A stretch of 64,000 nt of DNA from Achromobacter dolens (GTDB lineage: Bacteria; Pseudomonadota; Gammaproteobacteria; Burkholderiales; Burkholderiaceae_B): contig NZ_CADIJW010000001.1 of assembly GCF_902859745.1 (NCBI RefSeq), positions 1-64,000 on the forward strand. The letters are read 5' to 3'. Made by a program: the position numbers and the translations under genes. A model generated the notes under the pieces. That model was not told the DNA's origin, did no database searches, and was given only the letters and a program-made list of their open reading frames with translations. Shown here in pieces: positions 53,512 through 64,000 of the stretch (the stretch's first letter is position 1; every line of letters starts with the position of its first letter).

Positions 53512-53587
53512 GGGCTGATAGCTCAGTCGGTAGAGCAGCGGACTTTTAATCCGTTGGTCGCGAGTTCGAGTCTCGCTCAGCCCACCA
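53512..53587 (+). tRNA. tRNA-Lys (anticodon TTT)
   Basis: This 76-base tRNA has the acceptor stem GGGCTGA/TCAGCCC and an encoded CCA end. The anticodon TTT lies at 53545-53547, with a normal TTCGAGTC T-loop region. The discriminator base is A. It is one of the tRNAs modified by MnmC, whose gene is in this window. Confidence 0.97.
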
Positions 53588-53653
53588 CCCCGAATTCTCG
53601 CTTGAGCCCAAGCTCTCCATCCCCCGGGGAGCTTGATGCCATGGCACCCAAAG

Positions 53654-53681
53654 ACGCCGCTTTCGAAGCGGCGTTTTTTTT
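53654..53681 (+). terminator. Intrinsic terminator after tRNA-Lys
   Basis: The perfect 9-bp stem ACGCCGCTT/AAGCGGCGT with a TCG loop is followed by eight Ts. Confidence 0.92.
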
Positions 53682-53946
53682 GCGCGGCTCTTCGCCTGGA
53701 GCCGCGCCGGTATCCGAGTACCGGTGCTCCCCGGCGGGCCGCTGCGCGGCGCGCCGCTTCAGGATTCGCGACCGACCCTTGGGCTCTGATCGAGCCGCCT
53801 CCCGCCGATCGACCGATCTGGCCGCAATGGCCATCGTGGTGTGCGGGGCGATTCCGCAGCCGTTGTTGATCGGCCACTTTCTTGCGGATGAATCAGATTC
53901 CCGGGAAAGAGCGGTTTCCTTTTATCTGAATATCACGCCATCTGAG

Positions 53947-53972
53947 CAGCTCGACGGAAATAATTCGAGCTG
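53947..53972. promoter_or_regulatory. Inverted repeat in the AT-rich region
   Basis: CAGCTCGA (53947-53954) and TCGAGCTG (53965-53972) are perfect 8-bp arms spaced by 10 bases. No T run follows, so an operator is more likely than a terminator. Confidence 0.5.
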
Positions 53973-54093
53973 AAAATATCATTATTGGAAATGGCTTCGG
54001 ATAATATAAGACCAAGCCGCGGTTTTATAAATATCTATGTGTTTTATTTGTCCTGCTTCCCGCAATAATAATTATTAGAGTGCGGCGTGCGCA

Positions 54094-54123
54094 TTGACAT
54101 TCGATTGCTCCATCGAAATTAAT
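54094..54123 (+). promoter_or_regulatory. Promoter candidate of the type I secretion operon
   Basis: TTGACA (54094-54099) and ATTAAT (54118-54123) are separated by 18 bases in AT-rich DNA. Transcription from here would give a leader of roughly 290 bases before the TolC-like gene. Confidence 0.5.
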
Positions 54124-54240
54124 ACCTATGGCGTTACGCATGACGCGTGTGCCGCAAGTGCTCTAATTCATTAGCCAAATCGCCTCGATTCTCGCGAAGG
54201 AATCGTGCCGGCGGGGTTATTTCCTTGCTGAATGCACGTA

Positions 54241-54260
54241 GCGATTTCAATTGGAATCGC
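54241..54260. promoter_or_regulatory. 20-bp near-perfect palindrome in the predicted leader
   Basis: GCGATT-T-CAATTG-G-AATCGC matches its own reverse complement at 18 of 20 positions. It lies 160 bases upstream of the TolC-like gene. It is either a regulator-binding site or a leader hairpin. Confidence 0.55.
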
Positions 54261-54419
54261 GGGATTTCATCCAGGTGGAAATAATGGCTTGCAGGGCCGT
54301 TTTTTTGTCGTCGTAATAATGAAAAAATATAAAACTGAAATGCAGGCGGGGTGCAATGCCGATTGGCAAATGCACCGATGCGCAACGATTGCTGTGTCCG
54401 TAATGGATACGGGTACGTC

Positions 54420-55796
54420 ATGGTCGTCCTGATGTCCGGGGCGGGCCGATCCCGGTCATGGGGAGCAATGCGCTGGTGCGCGGGCGCCGTCGTCGCGATG
54501 GCCCTGGTCGCGACGGGCGGCACGGCCGGGGCCGGTGTGACCGGCGGCAAGACAGCGTCGGTTGGCGCGCCCGCGGGTGCCTCCGGGCCCGGGGAGGCTC
54601 CCATCACACTGCAGGCCCTGGTCGAGGCGGCGATGCGCGGCCATCCGCTCGCGCGTGGCGCGCTGCAGGAGCTGGACGCGGCCAAGGTCGACGTGGACGC
54701 GGCCCGGCGGCGCTGGTGGCCTTCGGCGTCCCTGGTCATGGAGTCGCACTCGACTTCCGTCAACTCGCCCGCATCGCGGGGCGCCCAACTCGAGCAGACG
54801 CTATGGGATGGCGGCCAGATCAATGCCAATATCGACCGGGCGCGCGCGGATGTGAGCAAGAGCGAGGCGCGGGTCACATGGCAGCGCCAGCAACTGGCGC
54901 TGCAGGTCATCGGCGCCTGGCAGTCGCTGATCAGCGCCCGAGACCGGATTGCCATTTCCGAGGCAACCATGACCCGGCTGCGCGGCTACGAAGCCCAGAT
55001 GCGCCGCCGGGTGGCGGCCGATGCTTCGCCGGCGGTCGACATCGAATTGGCGCTGTCGCGCCTGCGGCAGACGGAAGTCGACCTGACGACGGCGCGTTCC
55101 GCCCTGCGGCTGGCGGCACAACGGATCGAGCAATTGTCGGGCGTGGCCGGGCTGGACGCTGAGGCCGACACGCTGGCCGCGTGGCCCGACGCGCAGCAGG
55201 TCAAAGACGTTTCGGCCCGCTTGCTGGCGGAAGACGTCGGCGCCCAGGCATGGGACAGCGCGGCCGTGAAAATGGCGCAGGGCGATGTGGCCGTCATGCG
55301 GGCCCAGCTCGACGCCAAGTCGGCGCAACGTTGGCCGACGGCCTACCTGCGCGTCAACCGCCCATTGGGCGATGCCTATCCGGGCGCGCGCACCGACCGT
55401 GGCGTATCCGTGTTCGTGGGCCTGCGCTATACGCCGGGCGCAGGGTTCTCGACCGGTGTCGAGGCCGATGCCCTGCGCGAGCGCGTGTCGGCGGCAAGCA
55501 TGGCCGTGGACGCGGCCTGGCTCGAACAGCGGGAGGCGATGCTCGGCGATATCGATCAGATCGCGGCGGCCGAGAATCAGTTGGCGGCGCTGGAGAGCGC
55601 CGTCACCGGCTCGCAGCACGTGCTCGACTCCTATTCCCGTCAGTTCACCGCCGGACGCAAGACCTGGATCGACCTGTTGAATGCCGTGCGGGAACTGGCG
55701 CAGAACCAGTACGCCCGGGCCGACTCGCAGGCCGCGCTGGCCGCGGCCGCCTATCGCCTGCAGGTGCGCCTGGGCGCGACGGAGCTGGCGCCGTGA
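54420..55796 (+). CDS. TolC-family outer membrane efflux protein of a type I secretion system
   Basis: This encodes a 458-residue protein of the outer membrane factor family. It has a signal peptide (about residues 10-40, with an Ala/Gly/Val-rich core) and two repeated coiled-coil/barrel halves. TLWDGGQINANIDRARADV and QLALQVIGAWQSLISARD mark the first half. The second contains SVFVGLRYTPGAGFS and RQFTAGRKTWIDLLNAVREL, which is diagnostic for LapE/TolC-type proteins. It forms the channel through the outer membrane. ATG 54420 is the best start; ATG 54432 is possible. Its end overlaps the ABC exporter start (GTGA). Confidence 0.88.
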   Translation: MVVLMSGAGRSRSWGAMRWCAGAVVAMALVATGGTAGAGVTGGKTASVGAPAGASGPGEAPITLQALVEAAMRGHPLARGALQELDAAKVDVDAARRRWWPSASLVMESHSTSVNSPASRGAQLEQTLWDGGQINANIDRARADVSKSEARVTWQRQQLALQVIGAWQSLISARDRIAISEATMTRLRGYEAQMRRRVAADASPAVDIELALSRLRQTEVDLTTARSALRLAAQRIEQLSGVAGLDAEADTLAAWPDAQQVKDVSARLLAEDVGAQAWDSAAVKMAQGDVAVMRAQLDAKSAQRWPTAYLRVNRPLGDAYPGARTDRGVSVFVGLRYTPGAGFSTGVEADALRERVSAASMAVDAAWLEQREAMLGDIDQIAAAENQLAALESAVTGSQHVLDSYSRQFTAGRKTWIDLLNAVRELAQNQYARADSQAALAAAAYRLQVRLGATELAP

Positions 55797-57964
55797 GCGC
55801 CGTCCCCAAGATGGAGCCGCTGGAGTCGCTGGCCTGGGCATTGAACCGGCTGGCCACGTTGCAGGGCGCGGTGCTGGATCCGCTGCAATTGCGGTCCGGC
55901 CTGCGTCAATGCGCCGGCGTCCAGCATCCCGCCGAGTTGCTGGTTCTGTTGTGCCGCCTGTTGGGGGTGGGGACGCCGCAGGGGTTGCGGCGTCCCGATG
56001 CCGCGCATTTGCCGCTGCTGTGCCATCTGCCGGACGGCCAGTGGGGCATCGTGACCGACCTGGCGCCCACGGGCGACTGGATGGTGGCATGCGGCACCGT
56101 CACCCAGGCGTTCGCGAGCGCCGCGCTGCAAGACCGCTGCACGCGGATGCAACTGGCGCCGGCGGGTTCTTCCGCGGTCAGCGGCCATCCGGTCGGGCCG
56201 GCACCGGCCGAGACCTTCCGCTCGCGTCGCAACGCGGCCATCCGGCCGTACCGCGGCGCGTTGATCGAGGCGTGCGTCGGCTCCGTGATGGTCGGCCTGC
56301 TGGCGCTGGCCACCTCCATGTTCTCGATGCAGGTGTATGACCGTGTCATCCCCACGCGTGGCGAGTACACCCTGTTCGTGCTGGCGACCGGGGTATTGAT
56401 CAGCGTCCTGATCGAACTCGCCGTCAAGATCGCCCGGGCCCGCGTGATGGATCACGTGGTGGTCGGGGTCGACGGCATGCTTTCGCGCGACATCTTCCAT
56501 CGCCTGATGTCGCTGCGCATCGATCAGGTCCCGGCTTCCGTCGGTTCGCTGGCGGCGCAGATCCGCGGCTACGAACAGGTGCGCGCGTTCTACACCGCGT
56601 CTTCGTTGTTCGCGCTGGTCGACTTGCCGATGGCCTTGGTGTTCGTGGCGATCGTGATGGCGCTGGCTACGCCGGCGGTGGGCCTGGTTTTGCTGGGGTT
56701 CGCGCTGGTCGCGCTGTTCATCGGCCTGGCATCGCAGCGCCGGATCGCGCGCCAGGCCAAGGAGGGCGCGGCGTATGCCAATCTCAAGACGGGCCTGCTG
56801 GTGGAGGCCGTCGAAGGGGCCGAGACCATCAAGGCCGGCGCGGGCGGGTGGCGCTTCCTGTCGCGCTGGCTCGATGTCAGCGCGCGGACCATCGCCAACG
56901 ATCTCAAGATGCGCCACTTGAGCGAAAACGTGGGGTATCTGGGCGGCTCCATCCAGCAACTCAGCTATGCCTCGTTGATCGTCGTGGGCGCCCTGACGGT
57001 GATGCACGGCGAGATGACCACCGGCGCCCTGATCGCCTGCTCCATCCTGAGCGGCCGGATCCTGAATCCGATCCTGGCGGTGCCGGGCTTGATGATCCAG
57101 CGCGCGCATGCGCTGGCCGCCGAGGACGGCCTGGAAAAACTCTATCAACTCAAGACCGACAACCACGGCGTGCGGCGTCCGCTGGCGCCGGAGCGGATCG
57201 AAGGACGCTTTGCGCTCGAAGACGTGTCGTTCGCCTATGGCGACAATCCCGTGGCCCTGCGCGTGCCGAACCTGCGTATCCAGCCGGGTGAAAGAATCGC
57301 GGTGGTCGGGCCGATCGGGTCGGGCAAGTCGACACTGCTGCGCGTACTGACCGGCATGTACGTGCCGCAATCCGGGCGCGTACTGCTGGACGACCTGGAT
57401 CTGTCGCACATCAGCCGGCTGGCGTTGAGCCGGCAGATCGGCTACCTGCAGCAGGACCATCGCCTGTTCCAGGGAACCCTGCGCGAGAACCTCCTGATCG
57501 GGCTGCCCGATCCCGGCGACGAAGAGATCCTGCGCGCCATGCGCCGCACCGGCATGGATCGCATCGTGGCCGCGCATCCGAAGGGCCTGGACCGGCCCAT
57601 CGTCGAAGGCGGGCGGGGATTGAGCGGCGGGCAGCGGCAACTGGTGGCGTTCACCCGCCTGGTGCTGTGCCGGCCGCGGATCATCCTGCTGGACGAGCCC
57701 ACCGCGTCGATGGACGACGACCAGGAGCGCCGTTGCCTCGGCGTGTTGGCCGAAGAGGCGCGGGCCGGCGCGACGCTGGTGGTCGTGACCCACAAGCCCA
57801 ATGTGCTGCCGTTGGTCGAGCGCGTCGTGGTCATGATCGGCAACGGCATCGTCAGGGACGGCCCGCGCGATGCGGTATTGAAAGACCTGGAGGCCGCCCG
57901 GCGCGATGATGATGCCCGGCGTGCCGCCGGGGCCTCCCTGGGCGTGGCGGGAGCGCAGGCATGA
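55793..57964 (+). CDS. Type I secretion ABC exporter, LapB-like
   Basis: This encodes a 723-residue inner-membrane exporter. The N-terminal domain (about 1-130) resembles the peptidase-C39-like domain of RTX exporters, without a clear catalytic cysteine motif, so it probably docks the substrate rather than cleaving it. A six-helix transmembrane domain (about 155-450) is followed by the ATPase domain, with Walker A at 506-513, signature LSGGQRQ at 610-616 and Walker B IILLDEPT at 630-637. It energises one-step export of the adhesin downstream. GTG 55793 has a GGAG site and overlaps the TolC-like stop. Its end overlaps the HlyD-like gene by 4 bases. Confidence 0.9.
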   Translation: MSAVPKMEPLESLAWALNRLATLQGAVLDPLQLRSGLRQCAGVQHPAELLVLLCRLLGVGTPQGLRRPDAAHLPLLCHLPDGQWGIVTDLAPTGDWMVACGTVTQAFASAALQDRCTRMQLAPAGSSAVSGHPVGPAPAETFRSRRNAAIRPYRGALIEACVGSVMVGLLALATSMFSMQVYDRVIPTRGEYTLFVLATGVLISVLIELAVKIARARVMDHVVVGVDGMLSRDIFHRLMSLRIDQVPASVGSLAAQIRGYEQVRAFYTASSLFALVDLPMALVFVAIVMALATPAVGLVLLGFALVALFIGLASQRRIARQAKEGAAYANLKTGLLVEAVEGAETIKAGAGGWRFLSRWLDVSARTIANDLKMRHLSENVGYLGGSIQQLSYASLIVVGALTVMHGEMTTGALIACSILSGRILNPILAVPGLMIQRAHALAAEDGLEKLYQLKTDNHGVRRPLAPERIEGRFALEDVSFAYGDNPVALRVPNLRIQPGERIAVVGPIGSGKSTLLRVLTGMYVPQSGRVLLDDLDLSHISRLALSRQIGYLQQDHRLFQGTLRENLLIGLPDPGDEEILRAMRRTGMDRIVAAHPKGLDRPIVEGGRGLSGGQRQLVAFTRLVLCRPRIILLDEPTASMDDDQERRCLGVLAEEARAGATLVVVTHKPNVLPLVERVVVMIGNGIVRDGPRDAVLKDLEAARRDDDARRAAGASLGVAGAQA

Positions 57965-59199
57965 GCCGGCTGATCATTGATTCCCGCTCGCGCGGCAAGG
58001 GGAATGCCTTGGCGCCGATGTTGCCCGCGGACGGATCGGATGGGGTCTCGCTGGCCACGCCGCCGCGCCGGGCGCGCTGGTGCATGCGCGCCATGTTCGC
58101 CGGCCTGTGCGCGTTGCTGGCCTGGGCCGCGGTGGGCAAGATCGACCAGGTCACGCGGGCGCCCGCCCAGATCATCGCCGCCGCGCGCACCCAGGTGATC
58201 CAGTCGCCCGATGGCGGCATCATCACCCAACTGCATGTCAGCGAGGGCGACGTGGTCCATGCCGGCGACGTGCTGGCGACGCTGCAGGAAGAGCGGGCCC
58301 GCGCCGCCGTCAGCGACAGCAACGCCAAGGTGGCGGCGCTGCGGATCACGCTGGCGCGCCTGCATGCCGAGGTCTATGGCACCCCGCTGGCGTTCCCCTC
58401 GGATCTGCAGGATTACAAGGACTACATGCGCAATCAGCGCGACCTGTACCAGAAGCGCCGCACCGCGATCAAGGAAGACCTGGCGGCGCTGCGCAACATG
58501 CTGTCGCTCGCGCGCCAGGAACTGTCGATCAACCGCAAGCTGGTGGCCACAGGCGACGTCAGCCAGGCGGAGATCCTGCGGCTGCAACGCGCGGTCGCCG
58601 ACATCGAGGCGCAGATGACCAGCCGGCGCAACAAGTATTTCCAGGACGCGCAGGCGGAAATGACCAAGGCGCAGGAAGACCTGACCAGCCAGACCGAGCA
58701 GTTGCGCGACCGCAATCAGGTGCTGGAACAGACGCGGCTGATCGCCACGGCCGATGGCATCGTCAACAACATCCGCGTCAACACGATAGGGGGCGTGGTG
58801 CGTCCCGGCGAGACGGTCATGGAAATCCTGCCGACCGGCGGCGACCTGCTGGCCGAGGCGCGGGTCGGACCCGCCGATATCGCCTTTGTCCAGGTGGGCC
58901 AGAGCGCCAACGTGCGCATCGATGCCTATGACTCCTCCATCTTCGGCGTCATGTCGGGCGAGGTGAGCTACATCAGCCCCGACGTGCTTCAGGAAGAGAC
59001 ACGCCAGGGGCCTTCGCATTACTACCGCGTCCGCATCCTGATCCGGGAAGCGGAGTTCAAGCGCCATTCCTCCGAACAGATCCAACTGCGGGCGGGCATG
59101 ACCGCCACCGTGGACATCAAGGCGCGCGAGCGCACGGTGCTTCAGTACCTCGCAAAGCCCATCACCAAGGGGTTGCAGCAATCGCTGGGTGAACGCTGA
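57961..59199 (+). CDS. Type I secretion membrane fusion protein, HlyD/LapC-like
   Basis: This encodes a 412-residue adaptor linking the ABC exporter to the TolC-like channel. A short cytoplasmic N-terminus and one membrane helix (about 44-62) precede a lipoyl-like domain (QSPDGGIITQLHVSEGDVV near 80). A long alpha-helical hairpin (about 110-255), the returning lipoyl half and a beta-barrel domain (about 290-400) follow. The family ending is intact. It is co-transcribed with the two preceding genes and lies 65 bases before the adhesin gene. Confidence 0.9.
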   Translation: MSRLIIDSRSRGKGNALAPMLPADGSDGVSLATPPRRARWCMRAMFAGLCALLAWAAVGKIDQVTRAPAQIIAAARTQVIQSPDGGIITQLHVSEGDVVHAGDVLATLQEERARAAVSDSNAKVAALRITLARLHAEVYGTPLAFPSDLQDYKDYMRNQRDLYQKRRTAIKEDLAALRNMLSLARQELSINRKLVATGDVSQAEILRLQRAVADIEAQMTSRRNKYFQDAQAEMTKAQEDLTSQTEQLRDRNQVLEQTRLIATADGIVNNIRVNTIGGVVRPGETVMEILPTGGDLLAEARVGPADIAFVQVGQSANVRIDAYDSSIFGVMSGEVSYISPDVLQEETRQGPSHYYRVRILIREAEFKRHSSEQIQLRAGMTATVDIKARERTVLQYLAKPITKGLQQSLGER

Positions 59200-59264
59200 C
59201 CTGCCTTGTCTTGCCGGGCGTGACAGGCCCGGGATTTTGATTCTCCTTTTGTGAAACCACCGCC

Positions 59265-62200
59265 ATGAAAAATCGATTCAGGACGCTCTCCACCTTTGCC
59301 AAAGACGGCCGCATTCCGCTGAACTTCAAGCTCTCCGACGTCAAGGCCATGGCGATCGTCGGTGTCGACGTGGTCGCGCTGATGAAGGATGGCAGCCGAG
59401 TGCTGTTGCCCGGCCTGGCAGTGAAGATCCTGGAGCGCCCCTCGCCCGAATTGCAGTTCGATGACCAATCGCTGTCGGGTGCGGAGCTGTTCTCCAAGGT
59501 GGATATCGACAGCACCGCGCTCAAGGACGCCGCCGAGGCGCTGCAGGTGCCGATCTCCGAACCCACGACGCAAGAGACGCTCGGCTTCGCCGAGGAGGCG
59601 GCGGCCGTGCCGTCGGACAGCGCGCAGGGCGCGCCCAAGGAGGATGGCAAAGGCACGGGGGAACCCTTGGCCTGGTACCAGGAGTACGGCTGGATGTTCG
59701 GCGTGGTCGGCCTCGTTGGCCTGGCGCTGGGGCTGTCCAGCCAGAAGGGCAAGAGCAAGGGCAAGGAAGAAGACAGGCCGGCCGCGCCGGCGCCCGCGCC
59801 AGACGCCGGGGAGCAGCCGGAGGCTGGCGGGAGCACGCCGTCGCCGACGCCGGACCCTGACGGCGACACGCCGGCAAAGCCGGCCGTCACGGTCACGGGG
59901 GGCATCGCGGCCGGGGTGTTCAACCATGCGCAGACGCTGTCGATTTCGCTGTACGACGGCCAGGGGCAGTCGCTGGGCGAGGGCGACCTGGTGCTGGGAC
60001 CCGGCGGCCAGGTGCTGTCCTACCGCGCCGAACTGCCGTCCGACTATGTCGGCCTGGTGCGCGTGGTGGTGTCCGACAAGGCGCGCGACGGCCAGGGCTA
60101 TATCGATGAATATCGCCAGGCCTTGGCGCTGGCCCAGGGGATGACGGCGGAGCAGGCGGCGCAATTCGCCGCGACGGATTTCCCCACGCTGAGCGCAATC
60201 GGCTACCGCGCCGAGGGGCAGACCGAACTGTCGATCTCGGTGACGCCGCTGACCGAACTCGTCACGCGCCTGGTGGGCGCGCCGGCCGATCCCTCCACGC
60301 CGCTTGACGGGGTGTCGGCCGAGCAGGTCAACGCGATGGCGGCCGCGGTGACCAAGCTCATGTCGCAGTTCACCAGCGATGCGCAGCTCGTCGACATCCT
60401 GGGGCCGGTGGTGGCCATCAATGCCGACACGTTCGCGCAGGCGTCGGTCGCGGCGCAGGCTTATGGCAAGGTGCTGGCGGCCCTGGCCGGCATGGATTCG
60501 GTGTCGGGCGCGCTGGGCAACACCCTGCAGCTTCTGGCCGGCGGCCTGGCGCCGGATGCCGATGGCGCCTTGCGGATCGCGCCGACGATCGAGGGCGCGG
60601 TCCTGCTGGCGGCCATGCAGGAAGCCAATGTGCTGCTCGGCAGGCTGGTCGATCCCGCCCTGTTCGATACCTTCACGTTGCCGCAGATGCCCTGGGCGTC
60701 CGTGGCGGCGACGTTCACGGACGCGGAGGCGTCGCCCCTCCCCGCGCTCGATGCGCTGGGCAAGGATGCGCAGCCGTCGGTGACGGTGTCATGGACCGGC
60801 AGCGCCGACCGCATCAGCGCCGGCCAGCGCGTCGAGCTGCATCTGCTCGATGGCCGCACCATCCTGTCGCGCGTGTTGACGGCGGAGGACGTGGCCGCCG
60901 GCAGCGTGGTGCTGCGGGCCGGGGACTACGGCGAGAACACATTGGGCGAGGACGGCGCCAAGCGCTTGTTCGCTGCAATCGTCGACGACCAGGGCGAGTT
61001 GATCGCCGGATCCGACCTGCGGACCTATGGGTTGGTCAGCGTGGAGGTCGATGAGATCACCGGCCTGAGCGCCGATACCGGCGTTTCGCCCAGCGACTTC
61101 ATCACCAATCAGCCGGTGCAGGCCGTGTCCGGCCACTATCTCGGCACGTTGGGGCCCAACACCCATATCGAGGTGTCGGCCGATGGCGGCAAGACCTGGG
61201 TGGAGGCCGAGGCGACGCCCGCCGCTGATGGCGCGAGCGGCGGCACCTGGGTCTCCGGCTTCCTGCGGCTGGACGGCGAAGGCGAGGACGCGCGGCTGCT
61301 GACGCGTGTGGCGGTGTCTGGTGTCGACGGCGAGCAGCCGTTGACGCTGCCCGGCGCCTCGCATGCATTCGTGCTGGACGTCACGCCGCCGGACGCCCGC
61401 GTGGCTTCCATCGACAGCATCAGCACGCCGTTCGCGGGCGCGGTGCTGCCGGGCGGCTTCCTGTTCACGCAGCCGGCGCAGACGATCCGCGGCAAGGTGC
61501 TTGGCACGGTGACCAGTGACGACCGGATCATGGTGTCGATCGACGGCGGCGCCACGTGGACCGTGGGCGAGCTGTCGGCCGACGGCGCGTCATGGAGCGT
61601 CGCGGTGGGATTCTCCAGGTACGGCGCGGGCGACATCCTGGCGCGCATCAGCGACGTGGCCGGCAACACGACGGAAACCGTGTCGCACCCGTACCAGTAC
61701 ACCGAGCCCACGCTGGTCGGCATACAGCCGACCCAGGCCGCGCAGATCGTCATGGTGGCCGACGACGTCGGCGATCCATCCACCGATCCCTACGATTTCG
61801 TGGGCGCGCTCAGTTCCAACATGAGCACCGACGATCGGCGGCCTTCCTTCAGCGGCACGCTCAGCGCGGCGCTGGAAGGCGACCAGGTGCTGGTGCTGGC
61901 CGATAGCCTGAACGGCGGGGCCGAACGCTTGCTGGGTTACGCCAACGTGGCGCCGGCCGGCGAGGGGCAATTGCCGCAATGGTCCTTCACGCCGGTGTCG
62001 GACATGGCGTTTGGCAGCCATCACGTCGTGGTCAAGGTGTTCTCGCCGGGCCTGGATGCGTACGCGCCGGTCTATCCCGAGGGCGTCGATGCCGATGCGC
62101 CGGACGCAACGTCCAACTGGGGCTCCTGGGACGTCAACGTGCAGTCGCTGTCGTTCGACGGCGTGATCGTTCCGGGCGTGACCGAAGTCAACCTGTTGGA

Positions 62201-64000
62201 GACCACGAGTCCCGTGACGGACTACACCCAGCCCATCCTGACGGGCGCGCTGGGCAGCCTGCCCGCGCCAGGCGAGTACGTGGCCATCTACGACGCCCTC
62301 AATGGCGGCGCGCCGACACTGGTGGGCAGGGCGGACGTCACGCCTGCCAGCGAAGGCTCGGGAGCGACGTGGCGCTACGAATTCCCCGCTGACAGCGAAC
62401 TGAGGGATGGCGTCCACCGGCTGCGCGCCGTGGTCGAGCGCGCCGGGCCGGAGGATGGGGCGCCACAGGCCCTGCTCAGCGCGGCTCCGCCTGCCGTCAT
62501 CGTAAGCACCGAGCTGCCCGAGCAGCAGGTGGTGATCGACCAGGTCATGGATGACGTGGGCGTCTACACGGGCCTGATCGTCAGCGGCGCTTCCACCGAC
62601 GACACGCAACCTTCGCTGTCCGGGACGCTGTCAGGCCCGTTGCTCGCCGGACAACGCCTGCAAGTCCGCGTGGAGGACGTCAACAATCCCGGCCGGTCCT
62701 TCTCCTACCAGCCGCAGATCGATGAAACGGGCCTGGCCTGGTCGCTGCGGATCGATCCCCCGCTGGCCGAGGGCAACTATCGCCTGATGGCGGGCGTGGT
62801 GAACGGCGGCGACGCCATGGGACCGCGGCATGCCGAATTCGATCTGCGTATCAACAGCCTGACCTTCAGCGAGCTGGATGACGCCGCCGGCCCCATCAGG
62901 GGCAATGTGTTCGACGGCGACGGTCCGTTCCTGACCGACGACCATGCGCCGGTGCTGCGCGGCCAACTGGGCACCGCGCTGGGAGAGGGCGAGGCGTTGC
63001 AGATCGTGGCGGCGCAAGCAGGGAAGGAGACGGTGCTGGGCCAGGCTTCGCTGATCGAGCGCCCGCAGGGCGGATTCACCTGGCAACTGGAGCTGGGCGC
63101 GTCGCAAGGCGGCGCGGGTGAGTTGCCGGAAGGGCATTCCACCTTGTCGGTGCGAGTGGTGGACACGGCCAGCGGGCAGATTCGTCTGGCGGTGGACCGG
63201 GAAATTGACTTCGATGATGGCACGCCCACGGGGGTCGTCAACATCACTGAGGTTCGTGACCAGATTCCTGGCAACAGCGGCTTCGTCGGCGCGCTGGCTC
63301 CCGGTCAGAGCACCGATGATCGCCGGCCGCTGATCTCGGGCGTGCTGCTGGACGGGAATACGCTGCCGGCATCGCGCGCGGTGCAGATCGTAGACTCCGT
63401 GAGACAGCCCGATGGCAGGGTGGTCGAGAACGTACTGGGCCTAGCCACGCTCAATGCCGACGCCGCCGACGGCAGTTGGCGCTTCACGCCGCCCGGAGGC
63501 CTGGAACTGGGTGACCATACGTTTTCCGCCCGGATCGTCAACCGGGCCAACGGGCAATTGGGACCGGTGGGCCAGACATTCACCGCCAGGGAAAGCCAAC
63601 TGACCATCAACGCGGTCCAGGACAGTGTCGGTGCGCTGCAGGGCAATCTGCTGGATGCGAAGCTGTTTGCCCAGCCGCCCTTCACCGACGACGTGCGCCC
63701 GCAGTTGTCGGGCAGGCTGGGCATGCCGCTGGGGCCGAATGAGCGCGTCGCGGTCTATGATTCGGTCGATGGCACCGCTGCGGTCCTGCTGGGCGTGGCG
63801 ACCGTGGCGGACACCACCTGGAGTTTCCAGCCAACCGCGGGTTTGAGCAACGGCGCGCACGGGTTCCAGGTCAGGGTGGAGCGGATCGTCGCCGGTGCAA
63901 GGCCTCAGGTCCTGCTGTCGGATTCGACGGTTCCCATCACGATCGACGCCGTCGCCCAGCCGGTGACGGCGGTGGTGCTCACGGTGAACGTAACCGATCG
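59265..64000 (+). CDS. Giant type I secreted adhesin (BapA/LapA-like), partial
   Basis: The frame stays open from ATG 59265 to the right edge, 1,578 complete codons with no stop. Residues 1-130 resemble the N-terminal prefix domain of BapA/LapA-type adhesins. A hydrophobic stretch follows (WMFGVVGLVGLALGL, 143-157), then a Lys- and Pro-rich linker (about 160-205). Ig-like domains, one near 208 and others from about 506, surround a mostly helical segment (about 290-480). From about 825, at least six divergent repeats of 113-130 residues recur, each with a TDD- or TDY-type motif (855, 985, 1111, 1224, 1350, 1474). I see no TAAG cleavage motif for a LapG protease. It is presumably exported by the three genes upstream. 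The C-terminal secretion signal and RTX repeats lie outside the window. Confidence 0.86.
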   Translation, partial: MKNRFRTLSTFAKDGRIPLNFKLSDVKAMAIVGVDVVALMKDGSRVLLPGLAVKILERPSPELQFDDQSLSGAELFSKVDIDSTALKDAAEALQVPISEPTTQETLGFAEEAAAVPSDSAQGAPKEDGKGTGEPLAWYQEYGWMFGVVGLVGLALGLSSQKGKSKGKEEDRPAAPAPAPDAGEQPEAGGSTPSPTPDPDGDTPAKPAVTVTGGIAAGVFNHAQTLSISLYDGQGQSLGEGDLVLGPGGQVLSYRAELPSDYVGLVRVVVSDKARDGQGYIDEYRQALALAQGMTAEQAAQFAATDFPTLSAIGYRAEGQTELSISVTPLTELVTRLVGAPADPSTPLDGVSAEQVNAMAAAVTKLMSQFTSDAQLVDILGPVVAINADTFAQASVAAQAYGKVLAALAGMDSVSGALGNTLQLLAGGLAPDADGALRIAPTIEGAVLLAAMQEANVLLGRLVDPALFDTFTLPQMPWASVAATFTDAEASPLPALDALGKDAQPSVTVSWTGSADRISAGQRVELHLLDGRTILSRVLTAEDVAAGSVVLRAGDYGENTLGEDGAKRLFAAIVDDQGELIAGSDLRTYGLVSVEVDEITGLSADTGVSPSDFITNQPVQAVSGHYLGTLGPNTHIEVSADGGKTWVEAEATPAADGASGGTWVSGFLRLDGEGEDARLLTRVAVSGVDGEQPLTLPGASHAFVLDVTPPDARVASIDSISTPFAGAVLPGGFLFTQPAQTIRGKVLGTVTSDDRIMVSIDGGATWTVGELSADGASWSVAVGFSRYGAGDILARISDVAGNTTETVSHPYQYTEPTLVGIQPTQAAQIVMVADDVGDPSTDPYDFVGALSSNMSTDDRRPSFSGTLSAALEGDQVLVLADSLNGGAERLLGYANVAPAGEGQLPQWSFTPVSDMAFGSHHVVVKVFSPGLDAYAPVYPEGVDADAPDATSNWGSWDVNVQSLSFDGVIVPGVTEVNLLETTSPVTDYTQPILTGALGSLPAPGEYVAIYDALNGGAPTLVGRADVTPASEGSGATWRYEFPADSELRDGVHRLRAVVERAGPEDGAPQALLSAAPPAVIVSTELPEQQVVIDQVMDDVGVYTGLIVSGASTDDTQPSLSGTLSGPLLAGQRLQVRVEDVNNPGRSFSYQPQIDETGLAWSLRIDPPLAEGNYRLMAGVVNGGDAMGPRHAEFDLRINSLTFSELDDAAGPIRGNVFDGDGPFLTDDHAPVLRGQLGTALGEGEALQIVAAQAGKETVLGQASLIERPQGGFTWQLELGASQGGAGELPEGHSTLSVRVVDTASGQIRLAVDREIDFDDGTPTGVVNITEVRDQIPGNSGFVGALAPGQSTDDRRPLISGVLLDGNTLPASRAVQIVDSVRQPDGRVVENVLGLATLNADAADGSWRFTPPGGLELGDHTFSARIVNRANGQLGPVGQTFTARESQLTINAVQDSVGALQGNLLDAKLFAQPPFTDDVRPQLSGRLGMPLGPNERVAVYDSVDGTAAVLLGVATVADTTWSFQPTAGLSNGAHGFQVRVERIVAGARPQVLLSDSTVPITIDAVAQPVTAVVLTVNVTD
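61735..64000 (+). repeat. Tandem Ig-like protein repeats of the adhesin
   Basis: At least six repeat units of about 113-130 residues are visible in translation. A DDVG-type start recurs, then STDDRRP or a similar motif, a xxSGTLxxAL strand and an LLGxAxV strand. The conserved threonine codons lie at 61827, 62217, 62595, 62934, 63312 and 63684. Nucleotide identity between units is low, so the repeats are old rather than recently amplified. Confidence 0.82.

Follow-up and report, generated by a model that had tools for sequence, protein, structure and literature searches.

Among the described systems closest to the locus analysed here, LapA-type adhesins feature RTX repeats near the C-terminus, and Salmonella BapA and the Acinetobacter Bap-type proteins are long Ig-like repeat adhesins with a type I exporter. 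In the SPI-4 system of Salmonella, the adhesin SiiE is exported by SiiCDF and held through its N-terminus, with control exerted by SiiAB, a proton channel of MotAB-like type that governs both retention and release of SiiE, according to the available parts of two reports (PMC6272769, PMC12607715). In the available part of one of them, the mechanism by which SiiAB draws on the proton-motive force to retain or free SiiE is called unclear (PMC12607715). SiiA of this system has a single membrane helix and a periplasmic domain that binds peptidoglycan. The ArtA locus of A. xylosoxidans comprises an exporter, a 3,296-aa adhesin, a transglutaminase-like protease and an EAL protein, as far as the accessible excerpt of its description goes (PMC9430717), and [T/A/P]AAG is given as the LapG-type cleavage motif in an excerpt of a further source (PMC13090378). 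Among the titles and abstract openings listed in literature searches, none treated proteins of the SiiAB type in type I secretion beyond Salmonella, which does not establish absence from print.

The DNA analysed (the window) is 64,000 bases long and opens a contig of 536 kb (C1) in the 6.29-Mb genome of Achromobacter dolens (G000). Directly 3′ of a tRNA-Lys (TTT) gene predicted by ARAGORN (53512..53587, + strand) starts an island of six genes, all on the + strand and ordered OMF-ABC-MFP-adhesin-SiiA-like-SiiB-like. An outer-membrane factor of the TolC/OEP family (OMF, 54351..55796; PF02321 9e-33, OEP 114 bits) is followed by an LssB/LapB-like type I secretion ABC permease/ATPase (55799..57964; TIGR03375 625 bits, below the cut-off of 693; ABC_tran 108 bits and ABC_membrane 62 bits in Pfam) and by an HlyD-type periplasmic adaptor (MFP, 57961..59199; TIGR01843 295 bits, above the cut-off of 209), which overlaps the ABC gene by 4 bp. 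The overlapping or abutting TolC-like, ABC and HlyD-like genes reported in an earlier note on this DNA were thereby confirmed by both coordinates and Pfam/NCBIfam matches.

The giant adhesin frame begins 65 bp beyond the MFP gene (59265..71468, + strand), runs past the end of the window at 64000 and closes only at 71468 of contig C1, which gives a protein of 4,067 aa. The earlier note had described a giant frame with a BapA/LapA-like prefix and repeats; its size and repeats were verified, the Ig-like model Big_13 matching 11 stretches at 165.8 bits, whereas neither Pfam (E up to 10) nor NCBIfam (E up to 1) had a prefix-domain model that matched the N-terminus. Long Ig-like repeats and a type I exporter are shared with the BapA/Bap-type systems, from which the adhesin differs in this unmatched prefix. 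The RTX C-terminus anticipated for the full-length gene did not appear either, as not one GGxGxD motif occurs in the 4,067 residues. The NCBIfam Blp2 repeat model reached 54.5 bits against a cut-off of 750, and searches of PDB chain sequences with the adhesin, SiiA-like and SiiB-like queries returned nothing informative.

Two further genes follow, each after a gap of 10 bp: a SiiA/MotB-like gene of 347 aa (71479-72522, + strand) and a SiiB/MotA-ExbB-like gene of 435 aa (72533-73840, + strand), which the earlier note missed because they lie beyond the 64-kb window. The SiiA-like protein has an N-terminal hydrophobic helix with WPGFVD, containing Asp17, then a coiled coil and then a C-terminal domain. 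Its N-terminus matched MotB-type peptidoglycan-binding models (1.6e-6), PRK09039 models scored up to 28 bits, far below their cut-offs, and W12, P13, V16 and D17 were invariant in eight selected aligned rows, two of them from standalone pairs; no SiiA was among the PDB chain sequences matched by its profile. The SiiB-like protein carries the GLVGTFIGL...AFAASLFGLVGS core of MotA/ExbB-type channels and matched MotA1 at 3e-5, while MotA_ExbB hit it at E 0.067, failing the Pfam cut-off, and hit all seven aligned SiiB-like homologues at E ≤1 (best 6e-4). All MotA/MotB-family scores of the pair were under the curated cut-offs, weak but consistent, and at family level only, the SiiB-like protein would be a Mot/Exb/Tol-type channel subunit. 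Kinship of the pair to Salmonella SiiA/SiiB is putative, the likeness lying in family profiles and published descriptions; the pair may instead be an independent recruitment of a widespread MotA-like/peptidoglycan-binding pair, and the similarity would then be convergent and equally interesting.

Compared with SPI-4 SiiABCDEF, the locus has the same dedicated OMF-MFP-ABC exporter beside the adhesin, the same giant non-RTX Ig-repeat adhesin with an N-terminal region before the repeats, and the same adjacent MotA/MotB-type pair, in six genes with no LapG among them. It differs in gene order, being siiA-B-C-D-E-F with the pair first in SPI-4 but with the pair last here; the SPI-4 order is nearer to that of a divergent operon in another Achromobacter genome, G006 (SiiB-OMF-SiiA-MFP-adhesin-ABC, with OMF and SiiA assigned by reading only). 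SiiE is described with an N-terminal coiled coil, whereas a glycine-rich hydrophobic segment is present here, and the taxon differs as well, the Salmonella proteins being compared by description.

With the LapA/LapD/LapG systems, ArtA included, the locus shares a giant type I-secreted repeat adhesin and an LssB/LapB-type exporter, but it differs in having neither a LapG match nor a lapG-linked LapD in the genome, no [T/A/P]AAG in adhesin residues 1-250 and no RTX C-terminus. The genome check for lapG and lapD proposed earlier returned no Peptidase_C93 match in G000, where the lapG-linked lapD is also missing and only one weaker PF16448 paralogue (33.6 bits) is retained. Both LapG and a strong lapD (PF16448, 125.5-131.7 bits) are present in 40 of 43 Achromobacter genomes, each missing only from G000, G010 and G011. 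In G040, a lap block of 19.3 kb (2222975-2242312) carries lapD, lapG, an adhesin of 3,296 codons with 10 GGxGxD, a 218-codon frame, MFP, ABC and OMF, and agrees in content and adhesin length with the A. xylosoxidans ArtA locus as excerpted (PMC9430717). Contig C10 of G000 is without exactly this 19.3-kb stretch, with flanks of 88 and 94% identity, and on this alignment the lap/ArtA block is cleanly deleted in G000. The possibility that the window locus is the known Achromobacter ArtA/lap locus was ruled out, because the latter sits elsewhere and is deleted here. The likeness to Bordetella/Achromobacter LapA-like loci drawn in the earlier note was accordingly not upheld, the Achromobacter ArtA-type locus being a different one, and phmmer found no match between the window adhesin and the G040 RTX adhesin at E 1e-3.

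DNA alignment revealed that the six genes form a 20.3-kb insertion (53597-73873) missing at the same site in G040 and G010, with homology to both ending at 53596, 9 bp beyond tRNA-Lys, and restarting at 73874, 34 bp beyond the SiiB-like stop; the stretch looks like a mobile island. G040 and G010 carry a different 4.2 kb at the tRNA-Lys site. The same operon with the same conserved flanks, as far as the sequence was compared, is found in G011, and a contig scan with the SiiB-like protein found one locus, in A. pulmonis LMG 26696 (G018), which has all six genes, their order unchanged, on a different contig and off the tRNA-Lys site. A SiiB-like gene in a secretion locus was thus counted in four of 43 Achromobacter genomes (G000, G011, G018 and the divergent G006), weaker SiiB-like matches in the others being excluded by frame length; for the G006 adhesin, hhalign with the N-terminal profile gave E 0.042 and probability 1.3, which is merely suggestive. 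LapG is kept in two of these four genomes (G018, G006) and missing in the other two, and G010 has neither LapG nor a SiiB-like secretion locus. Because G018 and G006 hold LapG beside the SiiB-like locus, the two systems are not mutually exclusive and there was no strict replacement.

Alignment of the adhesin N-termini of three species (G000, G011, G018) distinguished three parts on the + strand: a conserved N-terminal domain, the proposed retention plug (residues 1-100, 59265..59564); a variable linker (residues 101-134, 59565..59666); and, by hydropathy as well, a conserved AWYQEYGW plus glycine-rich hydrophobic segment (residues 135-160, 59667..59744). The linker varies between species by indels and in sequence, with 37 residues in G000 and G011 and 59 in G018, while its flanking parts are kept in all three. 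The dN/dS values against G011 were 0.15 for residues 1-100, 0.70 for the linker (34 codons) and 0.29 for the segment part; against G018 they were 0.22, 0.22 (23 alignable codons only) and 0.20, so that a fast linker is evident versus G011 only. With a dN/dS of 0.24 for the SiiB-like gene, these values indicate that this gene and adhesin residues 1-100 are under purifying selection versus G011.

Both GFAEEAAAVP (residues 107-116) and the hydrophobic segment (about residues 141-159, inside the conserved AWYQEYGW...LALGLS stretch) are present as the earlier note quoted them, and the canonical cleavage motif is indeed missing: in both G000 and G011 the first 250 residues are free of [T/A/P]AAG. 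GFAEEAAAVP was rejected as a degenerate cleavage site, being conserved in neither G011 nor G018, and no motif common to the three linkers and usable by a specific protease was evident. The G018 linker holds one AAAG, a LapG-type motif, at residue 121, and G018 also has LapG; a motif of the [T/A/P]AAG type occurred in 5.6% of shuffled G018 linkers, and the AAAG may therefore be due to chance. Over 19 residues the segment has a Kyte-Doolittle mean of 1.5, a modest value for a membrane helix, and related adhesins that lack it reach no lower values in their best stretches (1.56 in G067, 1.54 in G114); by reading, the adhesins of G067, G114 and G006 show no comparable glycine-rich segment up to residue 420. 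Because the segment is conserved in three close relatives while the preceding linker differs, its contribution to retention is plausible. The observation in the earlier note is thus confirmed and its interpretation, anchoring by this segment or release by another protease, partly supported: the segment is conserved and a role in retention plausible, but the MotA/MotB-type pair would explain the locus better than a protease.

Among 399 Burkholderiales genomes, the SiiB-like profile scored >100 bits in five and the adhesin N-terminal profile (residues 1-520) matched five, with four genomes common to both searches (G000, G067, G114 and G221). Singly, the N-terminal matches are weak (19.5-41 bits; E 4e-4 in G067 and 2.5e-4 in G114), and they were weighted because of their coincidence with the SiiB matches and not by their own scores. 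The residues 1-100 part of the profile matched weakly (19.5-26 bits) in the SiiAB-linked adhesins of G067, G114 and G221; the best part in G221 was residues 293-425, with residues 16-123 scoring 6.6e-6, and G321 matched at 205-442 only. In G067, G114 and G221 the pair adjoins MFP and ABC genes and the adhesin, in the order SiiA-MFP-SiiB-adhesin-ABC in the first two; in G221 an adhesin frame of 9,542 codons comes first, followed by a glycosyltransferase-like gene and then by OMF-ABC-MFP-SiiA′-SiiA-SiiB (SiiA′ by reading). With G006, SiiAB-like pairs therefore recur beside type I secretion adhesins in four other genomes, all of them divergent.

As sampled here, most of the SiiB family is standalone. 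Among 369 genomes drawn class-wide there were 21 SiiB matches of ≥84 bits besides the own one, 20 of them with a SiiA-like partner in either of two scans (not in G739). No type I adaptor (MFP) was matched within the 3-20 kb scanned around the 21, several of whose stretches are cut short by contig ends (3.2, 6.5, 6.7 and 7.9 kb being the shortest), or, in scans of up to 40 kb, near the standalone G052, the fifth order-level match >100 bits, which ruled out taking any SiiB-family match as a secretion locus. Given this standalone majority, the pair could equally well be described as descended from a general MotA-like pair or as kin to SiiAB. The standalone MotA/TolQ/ExbB plus peptidoglycan-binding (PRK09039-type) pairs belong by profile to the same channel family and likewise carry W-P-x-[FYT]-[VT]-D, but differ in the absence of a type I adaptor match nearby, in a mostly shorter channel subunit and, by reading, in an OmpA-like C-terminus in two aligned rows. 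A plasmid search gave no match for the adhesin N-terminus and three weak matches for SiiB (H1-H3), of which H3 is unannotated and H1, on Sinorhizobium pSymB, is a standalone pair annotated as MotA/TolQ/ExbB plus peptidoglycan-binding protein. Matches with frames of ~570-1,470 codons and ~19-50 bits, which look like another MotA-domain family, were excluded by frame length and score, with the surroundings read for a few.

In the SiiB tree, one branch (support 63/72) divides secretion-linked from standalone members, amid long branches, and the standalone side has G006 and G485 at its base, each on a long branch; a single change between the two states suffices, and none of 500 shuffles needed so few. 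Besides the own genome, a class-wide search with the short N-terminal profile gave one match (3.8e-4), whose 98-codon frame contains a stop. Misses are possible in these searches, as the candidates scored per genome were at most four (SiiB, order and class), three (N-terminal, order) or 12 (short N-terminal, class), and the OMF query was insensitive, missing G006, G067 and G114. Gene thinning left six neighbourhoods with no SiiB match; an all-frame rescan covered five of them, and the sixth is L148 (49-bit match).

Since its parts list is that of SPI-4 and LapG is absent, we read the locus as probably a SPI-4/SiiAB-like adhesin system, controlled by the proton-motive force and working without LapG. 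The six genes would make a self-contained module, in which the OMF-ABC-MFP channel exports the Ig-like adhesin C-terminus first, and the N-terminal domain and glycine-rich hydrophobic segment lodge in the channel or periplasm and so keep the adhesin at the surface. The SiiB-like (MotA/ExbB-type) and SiiA-like (MotB-type, Asp17) proteins would form an inner-membrane proton channel that, in place of LapG cleavage, sets retention and release, along the lines put forward for SiiAB and SiiE of Salmonella. It is unlikely that the pair powers export instead of retention, as a MotA/MotB-type motor that pulls or pushes the giant protein or opens the cell wall for the exporter. The MotB/peptidoglycan-binding kinship of the SiiA-like N-terminus and the company of a 9,542-codon frame in G221 fit such a motor, but giant adhesins such as LapA are exported without any MotA/MotB-type pair. 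SiiAB is named in a list as one 5:2 motor, and these related motors act at the envelope (PMC12204202, in part), yet deletion of siiA and siiB in Salmonella left SiiE secretion into the medium unaffected, according to the text available (PMC12607715).

Clean deletion of the lap block, the LssB/LapB-type exporter and the AAAG in the linker of the LapG-keeping G018 would also suit an ordinary LapA-type adhesin that became permanently retained after loss of LapG/LapD, with an unrelated pair downstream. We consider this quite improbable, because the G040 lap block has its own RTX adhesin and exporter, so the window adhesin is not the orphaned partner of LapG; moreover, pair and operon move as one island, the pair recurs elsewhere, and the adhesin has no RTX C-terminus and, in both G011 and G000, no [T/A/P]AAG in its first 250 residues. 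A hydrophobic segment that anchors the adhesin in the membrane, together with some periplasmic protease that frees it by cutting the linker, would account for AWYQEYGW and the glycine-rich segment being kept in three species beside a variable linker; this reading appears very unlikely, as the linker changes in both sequence and length (37 versus 59 residues) with no common motif evident, and as the G067, G114 and G006 adhesins were read to have no such segment.

The SPI-4-like reading suggests that the proton-channel mode of holding and releasing adhesins extends beyond Salmonella. If it is true, with unrelated adhesins and shuffled gene orders, the constants, namely the channel pair, the W-P-x-x-V-D motif and the adhesin N-terminal domain, would be the working parts, and Achromobacter and other Burkholderiales would offer non-Salmonella models for SiiAB-type control. 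The locus may also mark opportunists whose giant adhesin the LapG route cannot control. More tentatively, giant adhesins gated by the proton-motive force might constitute a class of their own beside the protease-gated Lap systems, modular and spread by horizontal transfer through Burkholderiales and further taxa, with the N-terminal domain as the target of the SiiAB-type channel and with the system remaining in some Achromobacter from which the whole of Lap is deleted.

Near its C-terminus, at about residues 3506-3860 (69780-70844 on contig C1), the giant A. dolens adhesin contains two stretches that resemble each other and carry GWFHV...AGWHYL motifs. They appear PA14-like by eye, with no Pfam match over either of them, and possibly represent ligand-binding domains.

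Secretion-adhesin operons were also found in other genomes. A divergent one in another Achromobacter (G006:C9:32879-43409; stretches L024 and L025) almost matches the gene order of Salmonella SPI-4, and its adhesin frame comprises 1,243 codons. The operon of the Burkholderiales genome G221 (C16, about 281.9-321.4 kb; L070, L071, L085, L089) begins with an adhesin-like frame of 9,542 codons built of short LTTAQVAAL-type repeats, and encodes two SiiA-like paralogues and, as identified by reading, a TPR/O-GlcNAc-transferase-like protein. Likewise, two SiiA-like genes occur in a gammaproteobacterial SiiB-SiiA'-SiiA-OMF-like cluster (L141:1672-6295, G485:C24), of which the outer-membrane factor was assigned by reading; no MFP or ABC match was detected near it in the 20 kb fetched. 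Separately, most searched Achromobacter genomes encode a protein, about 1,100-1,470 codons long, in which one stretch is weakly MotA-like; an example in A. dolens lies at G000:C28:44964-45737 (L069).

In the A. dolens genome, which has no LapG match, a LapD-like GGDEF-EAL gene (L080:10126-12099, G000:C10) still adjoins the deleted lap block, its product being 45% identical to LapD of the Achromobacter genome G018. As for the tRNA-Lys site, it may be a hot spot, because two other Achromobacter genomes carry about 4.2 kb each of different DNA there (G040:C1:898512-902725; G010:C26:6446-10664).
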